Shown one piece after another: positions 29,570-55,712 of a stretch of DNA of 64,000 bases. Below the pieces are notes generated by a model. That model had not been told where the DNA came from and ran no database searches. It worked only from the letters and a program-made list of their open reading frames with translations. The position numbers and the translations under genes are program-made. The stretch's first letter is position 1, and each line of letters begins with the position of its first letter. The DNA comes from an uncultured Muribaculaceae bacterium (GTDB taxonomy: Bacteria; Bacteroidota; Bacteroidia; Bacteroidales; Muribaculaceae). Location: the NCBI GenBank assembly GCA_944321865.1, contig CALUMZ010000002.1, positions 1 through 64,000 of the forward strand, read 5' to 3'.

Positions 29570-30970
29570 CTATCTTACCACCCACTCAAGCATCGGATAG
29601 CCGTCACTGCCCGTGACCCACAAGCTGTTCCCGCTACCCTTGTGGCTATTCAGTGCAGCAAGGACATCTGCCGACCGCATCTCAAGATCAGAACATGGGT
29701 TAATTTCACGCTTTGACACACCATACAAATTATCATTTGCGTCTATATAACCAATTGCTTCACTGCACTTTGAAGACAAGTAACAACAATATTGGACAGT
29801 AGTCATAGATGCTTTGCCATACGAACGTACATATGAAACAAGTGCTGCATTATAATCGGCTCCAACTATGCTGCCCAAGTTAACACAATTAGTGATTGTT
29901 GTACTCCAAGCCCCGCCACATATACCGGCACCATACTCTATTGCCGTAACTGTTCCCTTATTCAAACAATTTATTATAGTCTTACCATAAAAGCGACCAA
30001 CGATGCCGCCAGACATGTTTCCATCAATATCACCAAAATTGACACAATTGCTCAATCTGCTATTGTCGCTATCGTCACTGCTCTCATAAAATCCTACTAT
30101 GCCTCCACACCGACTATCAGATCCTTTGGACTTGATTCTCCCATGATTAGAACAACGGCTGATTTTACATCCATAAGATGTCTTCCCAACCACTCCACCT
30201 ACTTCATATTTTCCGTAAACGGTCGCACTAACATGGCAATTATTTACATACCCATTGCCTGTTGTAGAAATATTGTCAAAAAAGCCAACAATACCGCCTA
30301 CACGCTCTGTACCATAAATATATGAATCTTTCAATGTTATATTTTTAATGCCGGCTCCTGCTACGCTCCCAAATAATCCTACACGCCAATTATTGCGATT
30401 TATGTATAATCCCGAGATAGTGTGTCCATCACCATCAAATATCCCTTGGAAAGCATTCACTATCCCTCCACCATAGTATCTTCCTATCGGAATCCATCTC
30501 TCAAAATTGCTGTCATCGTTAGGTTCGCCCGTTACTGGGTTCAACACATTCTGATTAATTGTGATATCGTCTGTCATTTTGAAGTATTTTCCGTCAAATA
30601 CGTTGCCGGCACGGCATTCATCGGCAAGCAATCGTAAATCGGCCGCCGAAGAAATCAAATAAGGCGACGCCGACGTACCGCGGCCCTGGAAACTGGTTGA
30701 CACCGGGCCACGACGAGGATCTTGTGCATCTTTCATATCCAATTCTTCATCCGAAAGATTTGTATCGATAGAAGACCCATCATCATCTGTTCCATCTTCA
30801 TTGCCGTCACCATCGTTTTTACCATCATCTGTTTCATCATCATTGTTGTCACCGCCTGAGGTATTTTCCGTCGGATTAGGATTTATAGGGTCATCATCAC
30901 CACACGAAATGAATCCAACACTCAACATTGCCACAACGAGCAACATCATCCAATTTTTCAAATATTTCAT
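29570..30970 (-). CDS. GLUG-motif surface lipoprotein
   Basis: 466 residues with a lipoprotein signal ending GFISC (Cys23). An acidic Asn/Asp/Gly-rich linker (about 25-75) follows, as in surface-exported lipoproteins. The segment 'GTSASPYLISSAADLRLLAD' opens a repeat region in which 'VGLFGSVAGAGIKNITL', 'VGGIVGFF', 'VGGVVGKT', 'CGGIVGFY' and 'SGGIVGRF' mark GLUG-type beta-helix repeats. These are seen in adhesin-like proteins of Bacteroidales. The final 'SLWVTGSDGYPMLEWV' is a common end of this class. The gene is more AT-rich than its neighbours; its leader shares a motif with the small secreted protein gene at 32603. Confidence 0.8.
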   Translation of the reverse strand: MKYLKNWMMLLVVAMLSVGFISCGDDDPINPNPTENTSGGDNNDDETDDGKNDGDGNEDGTDDDGSSIDTNLSDEELDMKDAQDPRRGPVSTSFQGRGTSASPYLISSAADLRLLADECRAGNVFDGKYFKMTDDITINQNVLNPVTGEPNDDSNFERWIPIGRYYGGGIVNAFQGIFDGDGHTISGLYINRNNWRVGLFGSVAGAGIKNITLKDSYIYGTERVGGIVGFFDNISTTGNGYVNNCHVSATVYGKYEVGGVVGKTSYGCKISRCSNHGRIKSKGSDSRCGGIVGFYESSDDSDNSRLSNCVNFGDIDGNMSGGIVGRFYGKTIINCLNKGTVTAIEYGAGICGGAWSTTITNCVNLGSIVGADYNAALVSYVRSYGKASMTTVQYCCYLSSKCSEAIGYIDANDNLYGVSKREINPCSDLEMRSADVLAALNSHKGSGNSLWVTGSDGYPMLEWVVR

Positions 30971-31076: not shown

Positions 31077-32390
31077 CTATGAAGGAAAATCATTGGTTTC
31101 TTGAATCTTTCCAAAATCGCTCCAATAGCCGGCCTTAGAATATGCCGATGAACAACGTACCGGCACATACAGCGTCCAGTTCTTTATCGAATTAGGGTCG
31201 AGAATGGGGTATGATAGTCCAATAGGTGTCTTTTTATTCACGTATATCGAGCCTTCTGATGAGGGGTAAAAAGGAGTCCCAGTTACACTTGTAAGTCCAC
31301 TGCCTATGTAAATCGTTTCTATCCCCCTGTCCGAGAATGCCCCATGTCCAATAGTTTTAAGCGAGTTGGGCAATTCTAAAGTGGTAGTAAAATTGCAATC
31401 TGTAAAAGCATATATTCCTATTTCTTCAAGTACCTTTGAATCAGGAAAAGAGCTGACGGTACATCCGGCAAAAGCAAAATCACCAATATGTTTTAATTTA
31501 TTCTCCCCATAGGTAAATCTCGCACTTTTGCAATCATAAAAGGCGTAATTGCCAATATCTTCTACTTCGGCATTTATCGCAGCTTCAAAAGCTGTACACC
31601 CTGCAAATGCCTCCTCTCCTATCGTTTTCAGTGTAGAGGGGAAATACATATCCGTTATGCATGAGTTTTCAAAAGCTCCTTTACTTATTTTTGTCAAGGA
31701 AGAGCTGTTGGATGGAATTTCGGCTACCGAGACATTGGCGAAGGCATACGAGCCAATCGATGTTACATCATCGCCAACGTAAACGTATGACACATATAAA
31801 TCATTCTTTGCCCATGGTGTTTGTGAATAAGATGTGTAATCGGCCATGTCTCCATCCCCTTCAATCCAAATGGAACTTTTAAGGTTGTGATACCATTTAC
31901 ATTCCCCGGTTGTGCCGTGCGTTGTATTAATCCTCTTAGTGTCGGAATAATCAATTGTACCTTTTGAAAAAGTCGTGCCGTTGGAAGTGAGTACGGAACC
32001 ATCAATAGTCAAATAATATACGTTATACACCGGGTCTGTGATGTAATTCAACGTTATTTCATTTCCGTTCACCGTATAAGTGAAATGAGCAATATTACTG
32101 TCATAAGATGTACCATCGTCGGAGTATGAATCTTTCCGATAATAATATACCAGTCCCTCAGTTGAATTGTAAAAGTAGATGTAAGTAACTTCATCCATAG
32201 TCGAGATCCAATCATCTCCGAAATCGATATCCCAATTTTCTGTAGTCCACTTTGTTCCCTCCAGATTGCCAATGCCGGTCAAACCATTTCCGGACAAAGC
32301 ATTTCCGTCGTCATCGTCGCTGCACGAGGAGAAGCATACACTCAACGCCACCAACATAAGCAGCGCCATAAATTGTCGTAATATTTTCAT
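31077..32390 (-). CDS. BspA-type leucine-rich-repeat lipoprotein
   Basis: 437 residues from the ATG at 32390; a frame nine residues longer exists, but MKILRQ is the natural lipoprotein-signal start. The lipobox is VCFSSC, followed by an acidic Asp run. Residues about 200-400 carry LRR_5 (BspA-like) repeats: 'VTSIGSYAFANVSVAEIP', 'LKTIGEEAFAGCTAF', 'VEDIGNYAFYDCKSA', 'LKHIGDFAFAGCTVSSFP', 'LKTIGHGAFSDRGIETIYIG'. Such proteins bind host or matrix proteins on the surface. The gene is AT-rich and belongs to the repeat-bounded island. Its specific ligand is unknown. Confidence 0.85.
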   Translation of the reverse strand: MKILRQFMALLMLVALSVCFSSCSDDDDGNALSGNGLTGIGNLEGTKWTTENWDIDFGDDWISTMDEVTYIYFYNSTEGLVYYYRKDSYSDDGTSYDSNIAHFTYTVNGNEITLNYITDPVYNVYYLTIDGSVLTSNGTTFSKGTIDYSDTKRINTTHGTTGECKWYHNLKSSIWIEGDGDMADYTSYSQTPWAKNDLYVSYVYVGDDVTSIGSYAFANVSVAEIPSNSSSLTKISKGAFENSCITDMYFPSTLKTIGEEAFAGCTAFEAAINAEVEDIGNYAFYDCKSARFTYGENKLKHIGDFAFAGCTVSSFPDSKVLEEIGIYAFTDCNFTTTLELPNSLKTIGHGAFSDRGIETIYIGSGLTSVTGTPFYPSSEGSIYVNKKTPIGLSYPILDPNSIKNWTLYVPVRCSSAYSKAGYWSDFGKIQETNDFPS

Positions 32391-32602
32391 AAGCCTAAAA
32401 AAACTATTGTTTAACAATTTTTCTCAATTTGTCCAAAAAAACATCATATAGAACTTTATTATATCCATTAGTGTCCACCCATATTATTGTATGATGCCTG
32501 CCGCCCTACCGTCATGATTTCCCATTCTTCTCTTGAATAGTCTGAGCCATCGACTTTTTTATTTGTTTCGCAAAATTCTGCATAGGTTTTGCCTACGGCT
32601 TC

Positions 32603-33706: not shown

Positions 33707-37084
<3,378 letters not shown>

Positions 37085-37282: not shown

Positions 37283-38887
37283 TCAATAGCCAAGGTATAG
37301 CGGCGTCGACTGTGCCGCATTGGGAGAACGTATGCGCAATATGCTTGCCACGGTGGGGGCAATGGCTGTTGCCTCCACAGGTGTTGTTATCTTTTGTGGT
37401 TTTACGGTAGGCCCCATGATAAATACCGGCGTACTCACGGCATTTGTGCGTATCAGCTTGGCTTCGTCAAAATTGTCATTGCCTCGATCCATAATGAGCC
37501 ATCCGGGACTCACCTCAACCACCACATCGCCGCAATAGGCAGGCACTGTCGACTTGTGCAATGCACGCGCCTCGGCACTGGCAGGATTGTTAAGTATCTC
37601 CTCGAATGTATAAGCCGCAGTTATGCCGCTCATTTGGCGCAATAATTCACTCGACTTGGCGCGGACCTCATCAAGCGACAATTTCTTCTCTTTAATCAGT
37701 TCATGGTTAAGGAAAAAATGCCGGTTGAAATATCCTTCCACCCACTGCCCGTTACCGTAGATAGCCATGAGATACATGTTGAGCAGCGATATGGCACGCT
37801 CGGGATAAAACTCTCCCGTCGGTATGTTAAACCGTTCGGCGGGACGAGTGTTGTCATAATAATAACCCGTCGATGCCACGAACACCAATGTATTGCTCAT
37901 GCCCACATTCTTGTCAATCTCGGCAAACAGCCGTCCGAGTTCTTGATCAAGCCTCAAATACAAGTCTTGATTTTCCACGCGGTTGTCACCATCGGTCGAA
38001 TACATGTAAGGAGCCGCCGTATACCCCAAGCAGAGCATGTCGGTCTGTCCGCGGCGTCCCAACTTGAGCGTGTTAAGGTACTCGATTGCCACCGTGGTCA
38101 CCTCGTTGTTGGCAAGTGCGCTCTTCTTAAATTTTCGGAAACGGTCGCGGTCGGACGACGAATAAATATACCTGAACGGATAATATTTCTTGAACGACAA
38201 TATGTCGGGATAACGGTCGAGCGGAATCGACGGCACCCACGACATGGTATCGAGCCGTGTGGCCAAAGGCAGGCGATAATTTCGCCCGGTGAGAATCTGT
38301 GGCGAGGTACGGTAGAATGTGGTCGAAGCCCAATTTCCGGTAATATCGTTAATCCAAAAGGCGCTGTTTGCCGCATGGCCGGCAAGTAATATTGCCTGCT
38401 GCGGGTCGGCAGCCAGCGAATGCACATATCCCATGCCACTGGTGTGAACCCGCAACTCATCGGCCAAGGTCGATACCTTGTAGGCCGCCGGCGAATAGGC
38501 ATCGTCGGTGAAATTACCCATCGACGACGGGTCGGCAAGTATATATTGAGGCTTGCCATGCTTGCGGTCATACACATACGTGCATTGTATGCCGTTGACA
38601 CTCGGATATGCCCCGCTCATCAGCATCGCCGTGCCCGATGCTATGTCGAGGTCGGGCACATCAAATTCCACATTTTCAAGGAAAGCCCCTTCGCGCATCA
38701 ACCGCTTGAAACCGGCTTCGCCAAAGCGTGACTGCAACAAGTCGAGGCAGTCGCTGTTCAACTGGTCTATTACAATGCCTATCACCAACCGCGGGCGGTC
38801 GCCCGGGTCTTGCGACAGGGCACTGAGTGCCACCATCGAAGCCACTATCGACGTGAGTATGCGGTTTATTTGCTTGTTTTTATGCAT
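37283..38887 (-). CDS. PafA-like alkaline-phosphatase-superfamily protein, catalytic residues lost
   Basis: 534 residues with a signal peptide (about 1-25). The body follows PafA-type phosphatases: 'VIGIVIDQLNSD' with a metal Asp (Asp41), 'AGHAANSAFWINDITGNWAS' and 'NQDLYLRLDQELGRLF'. However, the nucleophile block reads 'ASGTAMLMSGAYPSVNG' where relatives have GHA(T/S). The Asp-x-x-x-His segment is 'YTAAPYMYS' (289-297), the Asp-His-Gly pair is 'ASTGYYY' (338-344) and the last His motif is absent. It is therefore probably a periplasmic pseudo-enzyme with a binding or scaffold role. It overlaps the DUF4105 gene by 22 bp. Confidence 0.75.
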   Translation of the reverse strand: MHKNKQINRILTSIVASMVALSALSQDPGDRPRLVIGIVIDQLNSDCLDLLQSRFGEAGFKRLMREGAFLENVEFDVPDLDIASGTAMLMSGAYPSVNGIQCTYVYDRKHGKPQYILADPSSMGNFTDDAYSPAAYKVSTLADELRVHTSGMGYVHSLAADPQQAILLAGHAANSAFWINDITGNWASTTFYRTSPQILTGRNYRLPLATRLDTMSWVPSIPLDRYPDILSFKKYYPFRYIYSSSDRDRFRKFKKSALANNEVTTVAIEYLNTLKLGRRGQTDMLCLGYTAAPYMYSTDGDNRVENQDLYLRLDQELGRLFAEIDKNVGMSNTLVFVASTGYYYDNTRPAERFNIPTGEFYPERAISLLNMYLMAIYGNGQWVEGYFNRHFFLNHELIKEKKLSLDEVRAKSSELLRQMSGITAAYTFEEILNNPASAEARALHKSTVPAYCGDVVVEVSPGWLIMDRGNDNFDEAKLIRTNAVSTPVFIMGPTVKPQKITTPVEATAIAPTVASILRIRSPNAAQSTPLYLGY

Positions 38888-40080
38888 TGTCCTCTATAAA
38901 TCAGCATATAGCTTAACGACCTCACTGCCAAGCACAACATAAGCGGAAATGCGGCCGCATTGGCTGCCTGCGGCAAGAAATACCATGATGCAAGCAGCAA
39001 AATAATGAGCGCAAAGTTAGCAAAATGATAGAAATATAACAGTCTTTTTGCCTTTTTTATCCAAATAAATATCGCCGGCAACAGCGCAAACGGATGCAAC
39101 CAGAAGCCGTTAAAATTGGGCGACGTGGCCGCATGCGTCGATATGAATATCAAAAAGAATATAAGCAAGCCGCACAATCCGGCCACTCCAAACAGTATGC
39201 TGTCGGCCCAACGGCTTACCTGCCTGCGACGCACATCATGCCACGACACACATAGCGTGACGGCAAGCACCACCAAAGCCACCGCCATTGGCGACATCCA
39301 CCACGGTGTAGGGGGCAATATATCGCCTGTGTCGCTGCCATCGTTCAGCACTACTGTCTCTTTCACAAGTGCTTCCGAGCCTGCCGCACGTTCCACCCGG
39401 GCTTCGGCAAAGGCTCGCATGAGCACCATCGGCACAAACATCTGCTCGCGGTATGTGAGCGTGTAGTCGATTCCCGACCCGAGCACAAGGTCGATGCCAA
39501 ATTGCTGCCATGCGTAGTTTGAATTATAATGGCGCATCTCTTCTCGAAAGGTGATGGTATCGTGCATTGCACCATAACGCAATTTATCGCCAAGCACCCT
39601 TTCTATTATATCGCGCGGACGGGTTGCGCAATTGTCATACACATAATTATACCTGTAAGTGGCATTCTCGGGGCGTGCATTCTCCACGAGTGCCACCAGC
39701 ACGCGCATCGACTCCTCGGGAGTAAGATTCAACCGTTGCTCCACCACTTTGCGCGAGCCATATCCCTTTAGCATGTATGCCGCATCATAACCCGCAACTT
39801 TATAGTCGGTTTCGCCTTTCACAAAACGATACATGAAATTGGGAGAATCAAAATCAAAAATACCGTAATTATACACCATGTCAATATCATTGTAGCGCAC
39901 CCTCAACATCGTATGCCCATACAACTCATAAATGTCAGGCCCCGGGTAACAAGTCACAAGGCTTATCTCGGCACGGTCGCGCATCATGGCAACGCTGTCT
40001 CCATGCACGGCGGCCACCGACGGCAGCGATAACAACACCACTGCGGCAATCGACAATATTTTGATTATAATTTTATTCAT
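38866..40080 (-). CDS. DUF4105 membrane protein, possible lipoprotein N-acyltransferase
   Basis: 404 residues from the ATG at 40080. After a signal/anchor, the periplasmic DUF4105 domain spans about 30-240 with 'YELYGHTMLRVRYNDIDMVY' (conserved His) and 'YVYDNCATRPRDIIERVLG' (conserved Cys). Four or five membrane segments follow. As I recall, DUF4105 proteins of Bacteroides have been reported as the lipoprotein N-acyltransferase Lnb, which would fit the His/Cys pair; this needs checking. A consensus promoter lies 39-69 bp upstream, and the downstream PafA-like gene overlaps it by 22 bp, so the two are co-expressed. Confidence 0.75.
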   Translation of the reverse strand: MNKIIIKILSIAAVVLLSLPSVAAVHGDSVAMMRDRAEISLVTCYPGPDIYELYGHTMLRVRYNDIDMVYNYGIFDFDSPNFMYRFVKGETDYKVAGYDAAYMLKGYGSRKVVEQRLNLTPEESMRVLVALVENARPENATYRYNYVYDNCATRPRDIIERVLGDKLRYGAMHDTITFREEMRHYNSNYAWQQFGIDLVLGSGIDYTLTYREQMFVPMVLMRAFAEARVERAAGSEALVKETVVLNDGSDTGDILPPTPWWMSPMAVALVVLAVTLCVSWHDVRRRQVSRWADSILFGVAGLCGLLIFFLIFISTHAATSPNFNGFWLHPFALLPAIFIWIKKAKRLLYFYHFANFALIILLLASWYFLPQAANAAAFPLMLCLAVRSLSYMLIYRGQCIKTSK

Positions 40081-40118
40081 AATTTTACGGCCAAAGAACA
40101 TTCATCATTTCAGCCCTG

Positions 40119-40149
40119 CAAAAATATACAGTTTTCCCCAAATTGCAAA
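40119..40149 (-). promoter_or_regulatory. Promoter of the DUF4105/PafA-like operon
   Basis: On the minus strand TTTG (40146-40149), a 19-bp spacer and TATTTTTG (40119-40126), a full match to the Bacteroidales consensus. The predicted start of transcription is near 40112, giving a leader of about 32 nt. Confidence 0.7.
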
Positions 40150-40376: not shown

Positions 40377-41483
40377 TTAGCGGTTCGTTTGACCATCTAA
40401 TTTAGCTTCTATCTCCTTGATGGACGGCATTGTGCCTTCTACCTTCTCGGGATATAGCTTTTCAAGCTCATATTCTGATATTCCGAGGGGTTGGCTGCTT
40501 GATTCGAGCGCATATTGAGCCAATGTATTGTTCTTTTGTTTGCAAATGAGCAATCCTATCGTGGGGTTATCACGCCCCTCTTTACGGAGAAGATGATTAC
40601 AAGCCACGACATAGCCGCCCAACTGACCGACATCGGCAAAGTCAAACTCACCTATTTTAACCTCTACCACCACATAACAGGATAGTTTGAGGTTATAAAA
40701 GAGCAAGTCGATAAACTTTTCCTTTTCCGCTATTTGTAGGCGGTACTCCTTGCCTACATAAGCGAACCCTGTGCCAAGCTCCAGCAAAAAGTTTGTGATA
40801 TTGGTGAGCAATACGTCTTTAAGGATACGCTCATTGTATTTTCCTCGTAAGCTGGTGAAAGAAAAGTTATAGGGATCACGTGTCATTTCCTGCGCTAAAT
40901 CGCTGTCAGCATCAATAAGCGTACTTTTGAAATTGGTCTGCGCCTTGCCGCTGCGCTCGTATAGGCTTGTTCCTAGCATATTAAGCAACAGATCCCTGCT
41001 CCAACCGTTTTCCAATGTTTGCCGGACATAGAATAATGCCTTTTCCGGGTCGTTCGAGCATTTGTCTATGATATAGCGGTGATGCCCCCATGGGATTGAG
41101 AATAAGTCGGTCTGCAACCTTTCCACAAGCTGTGGAAGATTTGTCTTCTCAGATTCTTCCACAACTCGTGGAAGATTTGCAATGTGCTGGCTGTAAAGAA
41201 CATAAAAGCGTTTTGCATAACGTATAGAAGTTTCCGACAGCCCCTCTACATTAGGCATTTCATGGCGCAAATCACGGCTTAGAGTAGCATAGAACTTACT
41301 GCCATACTTATTGTCCGCTTGCTTTTCTTCAATGTCTTTACCAAGTTCCCAATAGTAGCGAAGCATTTCGTTGTTCACCTTTACAGCCGCCTTGATTTGG
41401 CTGCTTCGGTAACGCTTTACAAGTTCCTTAACCCATAAAGCGTAATCCTTATCTAATATGCCGATTGATTTATCCATAACCAT
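40377..41483 (-). CDS. DUF1016/YhcG-family PD-(D/E)XK nuclease-domain protein
   Basis: 368 residues; an alternative start two codons later (MDKSIG) is equally plausible. The N-terminal YhcG domain is seen in 'VNNEMLRYYWELGKDIEEKQ' and 'LSRDLRHEMPNVEGLSETS'. The C-terminal nuclease-like core is 'KFIDLLFYNLKLSCYVVVEVK' with the D...ExK pattern, followed by 'NPTIGLLICKQKNNTLAQYAL'. Its start codon abuts the stop of an hsdS remnant, so it was once, or still is, part of a type I restriction operon. It is only distantly similar to the paralogue at 17880-19022. Biochemical role unknown. Confidence 0.9.
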   Translation of the reverse strand: MVMDKSIGILDKDYALWVKELVKRYRSSQIKAAVKVNNEMLRYYWELGKDIEEKQADNKYGSKFYATLSRDLRHEMPNVEGLSETSIRYAKRFYVLYSQHIANLPRVVEESEKTNLPQLVERLQTDLFSIPWGHHRYIIDKCSNDPEKALFYVRQTLENGWSRDLLLNMLGTSLYERSGKAQTNFKSTLIDADSDLAQEMTRDPYNFSFTSLRGKYNERILKDVLLTNITNFLLELGTGFAYVGKEYRLQIAEKEKFIDLLFYNLKLSCYVVVEVKIGEFDFADVGQLGGYVVACNHLLRKEGRDNPTIGLLICKQKNNTLAQYALESSSQPLGISEYELEKLYPEKVEGTMPSIKEIEAKLDGQTNR

Positions 41484-41785: not shown

Positions 41786-42649
41786 TCAAAAACGGTCATT
41801 TTGGCTCTTTGAATCATCAATGTTGGCACTTTGGAGTGCAGCGATATGCATTGTCCGGTTATGTAACTCGTTTTTCTCGCCAAACAACAAGTTCCTGAAA
41901 AACAGTTCCAAGAAGGATGCGGTGGCGGATATTCCTTTTGAATAATTGTTGTAATTGGCTCTGACCAATGCATTTCTGAAATACCATGAGTGTTCTTGAA
42001 ATACACTGTTGCCGAATGTGAATCCGAAGGTGTGCAGGTATTTCATGGTGAACACGGCTATGGTGCGTGTGTTCCCTTCTCCAAAAGGATGGATTTGCCA
42101 AATGTCCGAAACAAACTTGCAGATATGCCTCAATGCTTGGTTGGCATCAAGTGACGGGTAATCGACACTCTTTTCTTGTCCGAAATCATATTCGAGCGTT
42201 TGACGGATTAATTCATGATTAGAATACAAAACGGTATCTCCGTCAAGCACCCATTCTTTCTTTGTTATGTCATAATCGCGTAGTCTGCCTGCAAATTTGT
42301 ACAAGCCCTCAAACAGTCGCCTGTGAATGAGTATCAGATAATCCGGCGTGAAAGAGAAGGATTTTTCAGACAGTATTTCAGTGATTCTTGCGGATACTTT
42401 ATCAGCTTCTTCAGTCCGTTCATTTTCTATATCCTTTCTGACTATCTTAGACTGATAGTAACTGTCAATCAGATGCTTTACTTCGTCAATAGTAATGTCG
42501 CCTTCAATGTGCCTGCCTGCCGTTTGCAGCAAATACTCCGAAGGTTTAAGACCGTCAACATCTTGCAGGCCGATTGCAGTCTGCCATGCTTGGGCCTTTT
42601 CTTTACTGTCCGGTTCGCCCTGTCTTATATATTTGTCGAAATCACTCAT
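41786..42649 (-). CDS. Fic-domain protein (probable AMP-transferase)
   Basis: 287 residues. The Fic motif is 'HPFGEGNTRTIAVF' (His187), close to the HxFx(D/E)GN(G/K)R consensus with Thr in place of Gly. Residues about 45-66 ('RHIEGDITIDEVKHLIDSYY') resemble a VbhA-like antitoxin helix, so the protein may carry its own inhibitory segment. It would attach AMP to a protein target. It sits upstream of the hsdS remnant and DUF1016 gene; fic genes are common passengers of type I restriction loci. Target unknown. Confidence 0.88.
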   Translation of the reverse strand: MSDFDKYIRQGEPDSKEKAQAWQTAIGLQDVDGLKPSEYLLQTAGRHIEGDITIDEVKHLIDSYYQSKIVRKDIENERTEEADKVSARITEILSEKSFSFTPDYLILIHRRLFEGLYKFAGRLRDYDITKKEWVLDGDTVLYSNHELIRQTLEYDFGQEKSVDYPSLDANQALRHICKFVSDIWQIHPFGEGNTRTIAVFTMKYLHTFGFTFGNSVFQEHSWYFRNALVRANYNNYSKGISATASFLELFFRNLLFGEKNELHNRTMHIAALQSANIDDSKSQNDRF

Positions 42650-54331: not shown

Positions 54332-54768
54332 CCTGTTTTGCCAAGCTCTAGCCTTGCACTAACTTTCCATATTGGTCAGCCGGGAAATCTGGTTGCAAGC
54401 AAATAAAATGATGGCTGCGGAGCTGCCATACTCGGCTTAACCGTAGCGTGGAGCGTTCGACAGAACGCGTAACCTACGGACAGGCAACGTCCCCACATCT
54501 CAGTCGGCTTCGGAGATGCCGCACTAATCTGCCATCGGGCAGCGTTATCTCGTGTTCGGCATCTCCGAAGCCGCTATCTTGCTTATCAATTCCAAAGGCG
54601 GCGGCTCGGCAAACCGCAAATTCATGCAAGCATGATTTGCATTTGCTCTCGCCTTGCACTAACTTTTCATAAATTAGGCGGCGGCTCGGCAAACCGCAAA
54701 TTCATGCAAGCATGATTTGCATTTGCTCTCGCCTTGCACTAACTTTGCAATTGAGCAACATAAATAAG
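54332..54768. repeat. Composite dispersed repeat cluster, left of MntA/HepT
   Basis: No gene. The cluster contains GCCTTGCACTAACTTTCC (54351-54368), a CCGTAG/CTACGG hairpin with inner GCGTTC/GAACGC arms (54441-54479) and a perfect 17-bp inverted repeat (54505-54521 with 54557-54573). Two near-identical units of about 70 bp in tandem follow (54596-54667 and 54676-54747), each beginning AGGCGGCGGCTCGGC and ending CCTTGCACTAACTTT. Parts recur at 55489-55712. Confidence 0.85.
54716..54747 (+). promoter_or_regulatory. Repeat-borne promoter of mntA-hepT
   Basis: TTTG (54716-54719), a 20-bp spacer and TAACTTTG (54740-54747), a full Bacteroidales promoter match. The boxes lie inside the repeat unit. 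The upstream tandem unit reads TAACTTTT at the same place, so only the gene-proximal copy is intact. Confidence 0.7.
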
Positions 54769-55488: not shown

Positions 55489-55712
55489 TGATGGCTGCGG
55501 AGCTGCCATACTAATCTGCCGCCGGGCAACGCTATCTCGTGTTCGGCATCTCCGAAGCCGCTATTTTGCTTATCAACTCCAAAGGCGGCGGCTCGGTCTT
55601 TGAAAAAACACTCGCCTTGCACTAACTTTCTATAACTTAGGCCGCGGCTCGGCAAACCGCAAATTCATGCAAGCATGATTTGCATTTGCTCTCGCCTTGC
55701 ACTAACTTTGCA
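55489..55712. repeat. Composite dispersed repeat cluster, right of MntA/HepT
   Basis: Begins GATGGCTGCGGAGCTGCCAT, as at 54410. It continues with the TTCGGCATCTCCGAAGCCGC block, a shortened unit ending TAACTTTC (55619-55630) and a full unit from about 55638 that ends TAACTTTG at 55710. It shares most of its length with the left cluster. Confidence 0.85.
55679..55710 (+). promoter_or_regulatory. Repeat-borne promoter of ychF
   Basis: TTTG (55679-55682), a 20-bp spacer and TAACTTTG (55703-55710), identical in layout to the mntA promoter. The decayed unit just upstream has TAACTTTC. The ychF start codon is 41 bp further on. Confidence 0.7.

Follow-up and report, generated by a model that had tools for sequence, protein, structure and literature searches.

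Much of what the surface of gut Bacteroidales does depends on lipoproteins, which the host receptor TLR2 also recognizes as ligands. The lipoprotein N-acyltransferase Lnb, the enzyme that attaches the final fatty acid to lipoproteins, was reportedly first described in Bacteroides, by Armbruster in 2024, and we know of no accessory subunit of any lipoprotein N-acyltransferase. PafA of Elizabethkingia meningoseptica (structure 5tj3; NCBIfam model NF042991) represents a different family, the PafA-type alkaline phosphatases, from which no pseudoenzyme subunit is known to us. Here we describe a locus where the two families meet. In a 64,000-nucleotide stretch of DNA from an uncultured Muribaculaceae bacterium (contig CALUMZ010000002.1 of assembly GCA_944321865.1; the whole stretch is called the window below), a pafA-like gene whose product has lost its catalytic site, hereafter pseudo-pafA, overlaps a homologue of lnb. 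It resembles pseudoenzyme subunits in general in that a dead paralogue under selection lies beside, or is fused to, an active enzyme. The product of pseudo-pafA is probably a periplasmic pseudoenzyme subunit that assists Lnb as a partner without catalysing a reaction itself.

According to the accessible portion of PMC12994826, DUF4105 is the Bacteroides lipoprotein N-acyltransferase Lnb, and DUF4105 genes have repeatedly been displaced by Lnt; neither that portion nor the corresponding one of PMC13103446 mentions a PafA-like partner of Lnb. Gut PafA sequences cluster with Bacteroidales, including Prevotella, according to PMC8812569, in whose main text the terms 'active site', 'catalytic residues' and 'inactive' are absent. 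Some of the gut 'PafA' genes of that study may be pseudo-PafA. A literature search at the level of paper listings, which did not extend to the original Lnb paper, found no paper on a dead PafA or on an Lnb-PafA pair, and candidate B. thetaiotaomicron locus names had no match in the literature.

Loss of the catalytic site

37283..38887, minus strand: pseudo-PafA, a PafA-fold protein without a catalytic site (signal peptide at about residues 1-25, phosphatase-like domain at about residues 30-530)

The open reading frame begins with ATG and encodes 534 amino acids with an N-terminus of the signal peptidase I (SPI) type. A phmmer search aligned its residues 30-530 with residues 16-529 of PafA 5tj3 (E=4.9e-48), and a profile built from 28 Lnb-linked relatives found 5tj3 at E=2.3e-96. 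The protein also matches PF01663 (Type I phosphodiesterase, Phosphodiest) with 65.8 bits, over the cut-off of 23, as do 28/28 members of the set A3. Its score against the PafA equivalog model NF042991 is 270.3 bits, under the cut-off of 650. PhoK, the second PafA-like phosphatase with a structure (3q3q, 5xwi), is a more distant homologue than PafA, reaching 127.7 bits against the profile.

We anchored the PafA numbering on the nucleophile T79, which is marked by the mutant chain 5too, and assigned to the catalytic positions their roles from the PafA literature. The nucleophile is replaced by isoleucine (I82). All phosphate-binding positions have changed (N100 to T103, K162 to D161 and R164 to Q163), and so have five of the six metal ligands (D305 to P293, H309 to S297, D352 to T340, H353 to G341 and H486 to A476). 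The only one of the ten catalytic residues to be retained is D41, the counterpart of D38. No gaps interrupt the alignment near the nucleophile, D305/H309 or D352/H353, and its pairwise and profile versions agree; in the pairwise version H486 adjoins a short gap, which makes its partner A476 the least certain assignment.

A first, sequence-only reading of this DNA had described a PafA-like protein that has lost its active site, with the nucleophile region, the Asp-x3-His site, the Asp-His pair and the last His all replaced. The position-by-position alignment to the PafA structure that it called for agrees on each of these four places, with only the partner of H486 less certain, and adds the retention of D41 and the losses of K162, R164 and N100, which the reading had not mentioned. 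An alternative alignment restoring the metal ligands, which would have spoken against it, was not obtained: pairwise, profile and multiple alignments concur at the catalytic positions, and conservation has not arisen at any new Asp, Glu, His or Cys, so that we reject such a rescue.

Alignment thus confirms the product as a full-length PafA homologue without the nucleophile, the phosphate-binding basic residues and five of the six metal ligands. Like PafA of E. meningoseptica, it belongs by sequence to the same fold family over its whole length, carries a signal peptide, and retains, besides the scaffold residues, a single ligand Asp (D38); unlike PafA, it has nine of the ten catalytic residues replaced and is encoded together with lnb. 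Lacking its nucleophile, its phosphate-binding residues and all but one of the six metal ligands, the protein cannot, judged by sequence, perform PafA chemistry.

The loss is shared by a clade and the gene is under selection

We drew relatives from 395 genomes of the phylum (165 matching), 295 genomes of the order (174 matching), 61 genomes of one family (59 matching), and six named Muribaculaceae/Bacteroidales contigs. From the 174 matching order genomes 91 loci were examined, the remaining 83 being mostly weaker matches. The alignments exclude L054 (miscalled frame), L077 (contig end) and L106 (a duplicate of the window). The core set of 53 rows is without L095, L134 and L078 and includes L062 and L067, which belong to the clade and are not adjacent to Lnb. 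For comparison we used an intact set of 27 sequences chosen for intactness (the PafA reference, 24 loci outside the order, and the Bacteroidales loci L094 and L153) and 40 loci unlinked to Lnb; L094 is counted in both.

In the core clade, 36 sequences retain one of the ten catalytic residues, 15 retain two, one retains three and one retains none, whereas the intact set, selected as such, has 10/10 in all 27. D38 is retained in 52/53 core relatives, and T79, K162, R164, D305, D352 and H353 are each found in 0/53. Column entropy in this clade places positions 79, 100, 309 and 486 at the 83rd-97th percentile and positions 162, 164 and 305 at the 61st-64th. The conserved columns include 38, 352 and 353 (5th-19th percentile), the last two with T-G in place of D-H (T340 in 46/53, G341 in 50/53). 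Catalytic-site loss with conservation of scaffold residues is, as judged from these alignments, a property of the clade.

Retention of D41 and the appearance of a T340-G341 pair, with the frequencies given above, could mean that the old cleft has been repurposed for a new reaction. However, among the 53 core relatives no Asp, Glu, His or Cys at a new position reaches 85% conservation, and therefore an alternative two-metal site is not apparent. In addition, the nucleophile column is highly variable, the T-G pair at 340-341 is not retained in the family of fused genes described below, and D41 may be structural. We consider a repurposed enzyme improbable.

Loss of catalytic residues is also what a decaying pseudogene would show. 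This explanation, to which we assign a negligible probability, is ruled out by normal-length open frames across families and by the ratio of nonsynonymous to synonymous differences per site (pN/pS). In the window and L031-L036 the mean pN/pS is 0.146 for pseudo-PafA, 0.254 for the Lnb neighbour and 0.092 for secA, figures which are rough, as many of the pairs are almost saturated at synonymous sites. Pseudo-pafA is under purifying selection and is not decaying.

The overlapping gene encodes a divergent Lnb homologue

38866..40101, minus strand: lnb (DUF4105), a lipoprotein N-acyltransferase homologue, identified by its Pfam domains and by H63 and C158
38866..38887, minus strand: overlap of the lnb end and the pseudo-pafA start, 22 nt, from the open reading frame coordinates
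33707..37084, minus strand: secA, the downstream neighbour, 198 bp from pseudo-pafA

The 411-residue neighbour has the Lnb layout, a periplasmic permuted NlpC/P60-type domain followed by five transmembrane (TM) helices. It matches Pfam Lnb_N with 82.3 bits (cut-off 22.2) and 5TMH_Lnb with 141.4 bits (cut-off 25.2), and the NCBIfam Lnb model NF051878 with 342.6 bits over residues 23-403, under the cut-off of 550. By these matches it is a divergent Lnb homologue that the curated rule of NF051878 does not call. The catalytic residues are H63 and C158; among the linked Lnb proteins the Cys is present in 53/53 and the His in 52/53, the exception being a truncated locus. Thus the neighbour has both Pfam domains and the His/Cys pair of Lnb, and pseudo-PafA itself is no Lnb. 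A search for Lnt in the genome of the window gave no match.

The sequence-only reading had noted an overlap with the DUF4105 gene, and the coordinates bear this out, with lnb ending at 38866 and pseudo-pafA starting at 38887. Translational coupling across the overlap is possible. Among 55 linked loci the junction is ATGA/TAATG in 18, another overlap in 15, a gap of 0-70 nt in 15 and a longer gap in five; one is fused and one is miscalled. At the 91 examined loci, which give no rate for the whole order, Lnb lies within reach at 48, SecA at 48 and both at 46. A PafA or pseudo-PafA gene stood beside Lnb at 0/27 loci outside the order (flanks of about 1.5 kb) and at 3/3 inside it. A chance juxtaposition of lnb and pseudo-pafA is ruled out by the conservation of their order across families and by the fusions.

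The same counts raise the question of a partnership with SecA or the Sec translocon. In its favor, SecA is adjacent at as many examined loci as Lnb, is on the same strand at 53/53 of the linked loci holding it, and lies in reach without Lnb at L067 and L077, the latter being cut at its upstream end. However, secA is a conserved neighbour in the main linked clade and not in the family of fused genes, where it was found at 0/31 loci (flanks of about 1.5-2.5 kb) and Lnb is adjacent or fused at 21. Furthermore, SecA is cytosolic whereas pseudo-PafA has a signal peptide, and in the window their genes lie 198 bp apart. We regard this explanation as very improbable.

Natural fusions of Lnb and pseudo-PafA

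In the family represented by the 61 genomes, Lnb and pseudo-PafA occur as one polypeptide. Uninterrupted fused frames of 914-937 amino acids, with no stops, are present in six genomes and represent five distinct sequences: G435 and G701 (926 each), G714 (937), G708 (928), G693 (914) and G698 (930). The fusions of G435 (C7, L154) and G701 (C9, L155) come from genomes classed as different species and are 100% identical, hence they are not independent. In three further genomes (G732, G703 and G726) both genes share one frame with a single stop inside the match. The Lnb His and Cys are legible by eye in 5/5 distinct fusions.

On the family tree the fused state needs at least two changes on starred branches, which suggests that the fusion arose in at least two events. 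Beside the fused relatives in the tree, L168 and L173 have separate frames, the Lnb frame being short (331-352 amino acids); possibly a fusion was split again there or a frameshift intervened. The fused chain runs from the Lnb periplasmic catalytic domain through five TM helices and a hydrophobic segment, the former signal peptide, to the pseudo-phosphatase domain. Because the former signal peptide follows the fifth TM helix of Lnb as a further hydrophobic stretch, the pseudo-phosphatase domain would be periplasmic and lie beside the Lnb active site.

A hand count of the same 61 genomes found pseudo-PafA in 40, and all 40 contain Lnb; two genomes, 55-62% complete, contain neither gene. Two further proposals of the sequence-only reading gain support from these data: selection for a non-catalytic role, from the clade-wide site loss on a conserved scaffold and the pN/pS, and a joint function with the DUF4105 protein, from the Lnb match, the conserved gene order and the fusions.

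A helix motif of the Lnb-linked clades

37763..37798, minus strand: codons of the helix motif, residues 364-375 (RAISLLNMYLMA), with coordinates computed from the residue numbers

The motif R...L[LIM]N.[YH]LM[AS] is present in 40/53 core sequences, 19/31 of the fusion family, 1/40 unlinked and 0/27 intact sequences, that is, in 59/84 sequences of the Lnb-linked clades against 1/66 others. L43, G124 and M374 are likewise typical of both Lnb-linked clades; R518, R520 and T340-G341 are mostly core-clade features. Residues shared by both linked clades are candidate Lnb contacts, and shared ancestry accounts for the motif pattern equally well.

Relatives without a linked lnb

In a quick tree of 121 rows, from which the partial L021 was also excluded, the Lnb-linked rows nest in a 95-row Bacteroidales clade (100*). 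The intact L094 lies near its base, and partial decay is seen in many of its unlinked members. Two changes of the linked label are required on the tree, with the placement of the long branches L095 and L134 being unsure. In G536 and G424, core-clade genomes in which Lnb is not adjacent, Lnb is found elsewhere in the genome. In G424 the TM-domain model finds Lnb at two loci, and the pseudo-PafA gene sits between topA-like and secA genes, with no Lnb there. Several unlinked, partly decayed relatives (L082, L096, L102, L103; G482, G614, G473, G490, G589) adjoin pcrB-, phosphopantetheinyl transferase-, gldD- and gldE-like genes, as identified by eye.

A number of observations weigh against a dedicated partnership with Lnb. 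Only L094 among the 40 unlinked loci has all ten catalytic residues, the other 39 having 0-5. Lnb is present in 20 of the 40 genomes, and neither Lnb domain was detected in the other 20. Inactivation was probably not driven by Lnb, because unlinked relatives have decayed too, and Lnb was not detected in half of their genomes; judging from these sequences, it probably preceded the link to Lnb or was independent of it, which is the chief finding against a history driven by Lnb alone. Since inactivation seems to predate the link, a broader envelope role for pseudo-PafA is possible. Lnb also appears to work without pseudo-PafA: it is found alone in 19/59 matching genomes of the fusion family, and in other orders it occurs without pseudo-PafA nearby. 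Lnb is adjacent or fused at 21 of the 31 fusion-family loci, and at the other ten, which fall on one side of a branch (89/83 support), pseudo-pafA lies away from it. Gene order alone cannot tell co-regulation from physical partnership, and a direct hint of contact comes only from the fusions. An AlphaFold2 model from seven sequences scored 32 in the predicted local distance difference test (pLDDT) and was set aside, so that it gave no view of the proposed interface.

Taken at face value, some of these observations would suit a general envelope scaffold or chaperone, acting for example on lipoproteins or phospholipids, whose gene does no more than share a transcript with lnb in this clade and for which the fusions are rare accidents. 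In other Bacteroidales families, decayed relatives do occupy a different locus away from lnb, and Lnb was not detected in half of the genomes concerned; 18 of these 20 genomes contain Lnt, within 20 kb of the pafA relative in 5/18. However, such a protein would have to accommodate at least two fusion events, a family in which pseudo-PafA never occurs without Lnb, and a new motif that is nearly confined to the Lnb-linked clades. We consider it unlikely.

Proposed role of pseudo-PafA

The partnership of pseudo-PafA with Lnb builds on the site loss, selection, linkage and fusion established above from sequence. The protein is a pseudoenzyme that descends from a PafA-type alkaline phosphatase and is secreted to the periplasm, and it most likely acts as a non-catalytic partner of the inner-membrane Lnb encoded directly upstream, presumably through physical contact. 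Its job may be to stabilize Lnb, or to assist in presenting a substrate, either the phospholipid acyl donor or the diacylated apolipoprotein, to the Cys/His centre. This role would be exerted via conserved surfaces such as the R364...N370-YLMA helix and not via ligand binding in the old active site, because four of the old pocket positions vary fast.

More tentatively, lipoprotein N-acylation in Bacteroidales may be the work of a two-part machine, Lnb and a dead-phosphatase subunit that controls or presents the substrate; a PafA paralogue would have been inactivated, then recruited to Lnb, and fused to it at least twice. A conserved pseudoenzyme partner, if true, would mean that Lnb is helped or regulated in its activity. 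Automatic annotation of pseudo-pafA as an alkaline phosphatase would need correction too, and there would be a graded series from intact to dead PafA for studying the transition from phosphatase to subunit.

Promoter candidates and other genes of the window

40119..40149, minus strand: match to the Bacteroidota-type promoter TTTG - 19 nt - TAnnTTTG, found by pattern scan directly upstream of lnb

This pattern, the Bacteroidota promoter consensus, has six matches in the window against 1.82 expected, and a lone TAnnTTTG box was seen by eye in the 198 bp gap between pseudo-pafA and secA. A scan for sigma-70 promoters gave four sites, below the shuffle mean of 6.0. Two of the pattern matches, at 54716-54747 and 55679-55710, are identical over 32 nt and lie 963 bp apart, which suggests a duplicated upstream stretch. 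Upstream of lnb are genes for a YhcG/DUF1016 PDDEXK nuclease (40377-41483) and a Fic/DOC protein (41786-42649). Elsewhere, the window encodes a GLUG-motif protein (29570-30970) and a BspA-type leucine-rich repeat protein (31077-32417).
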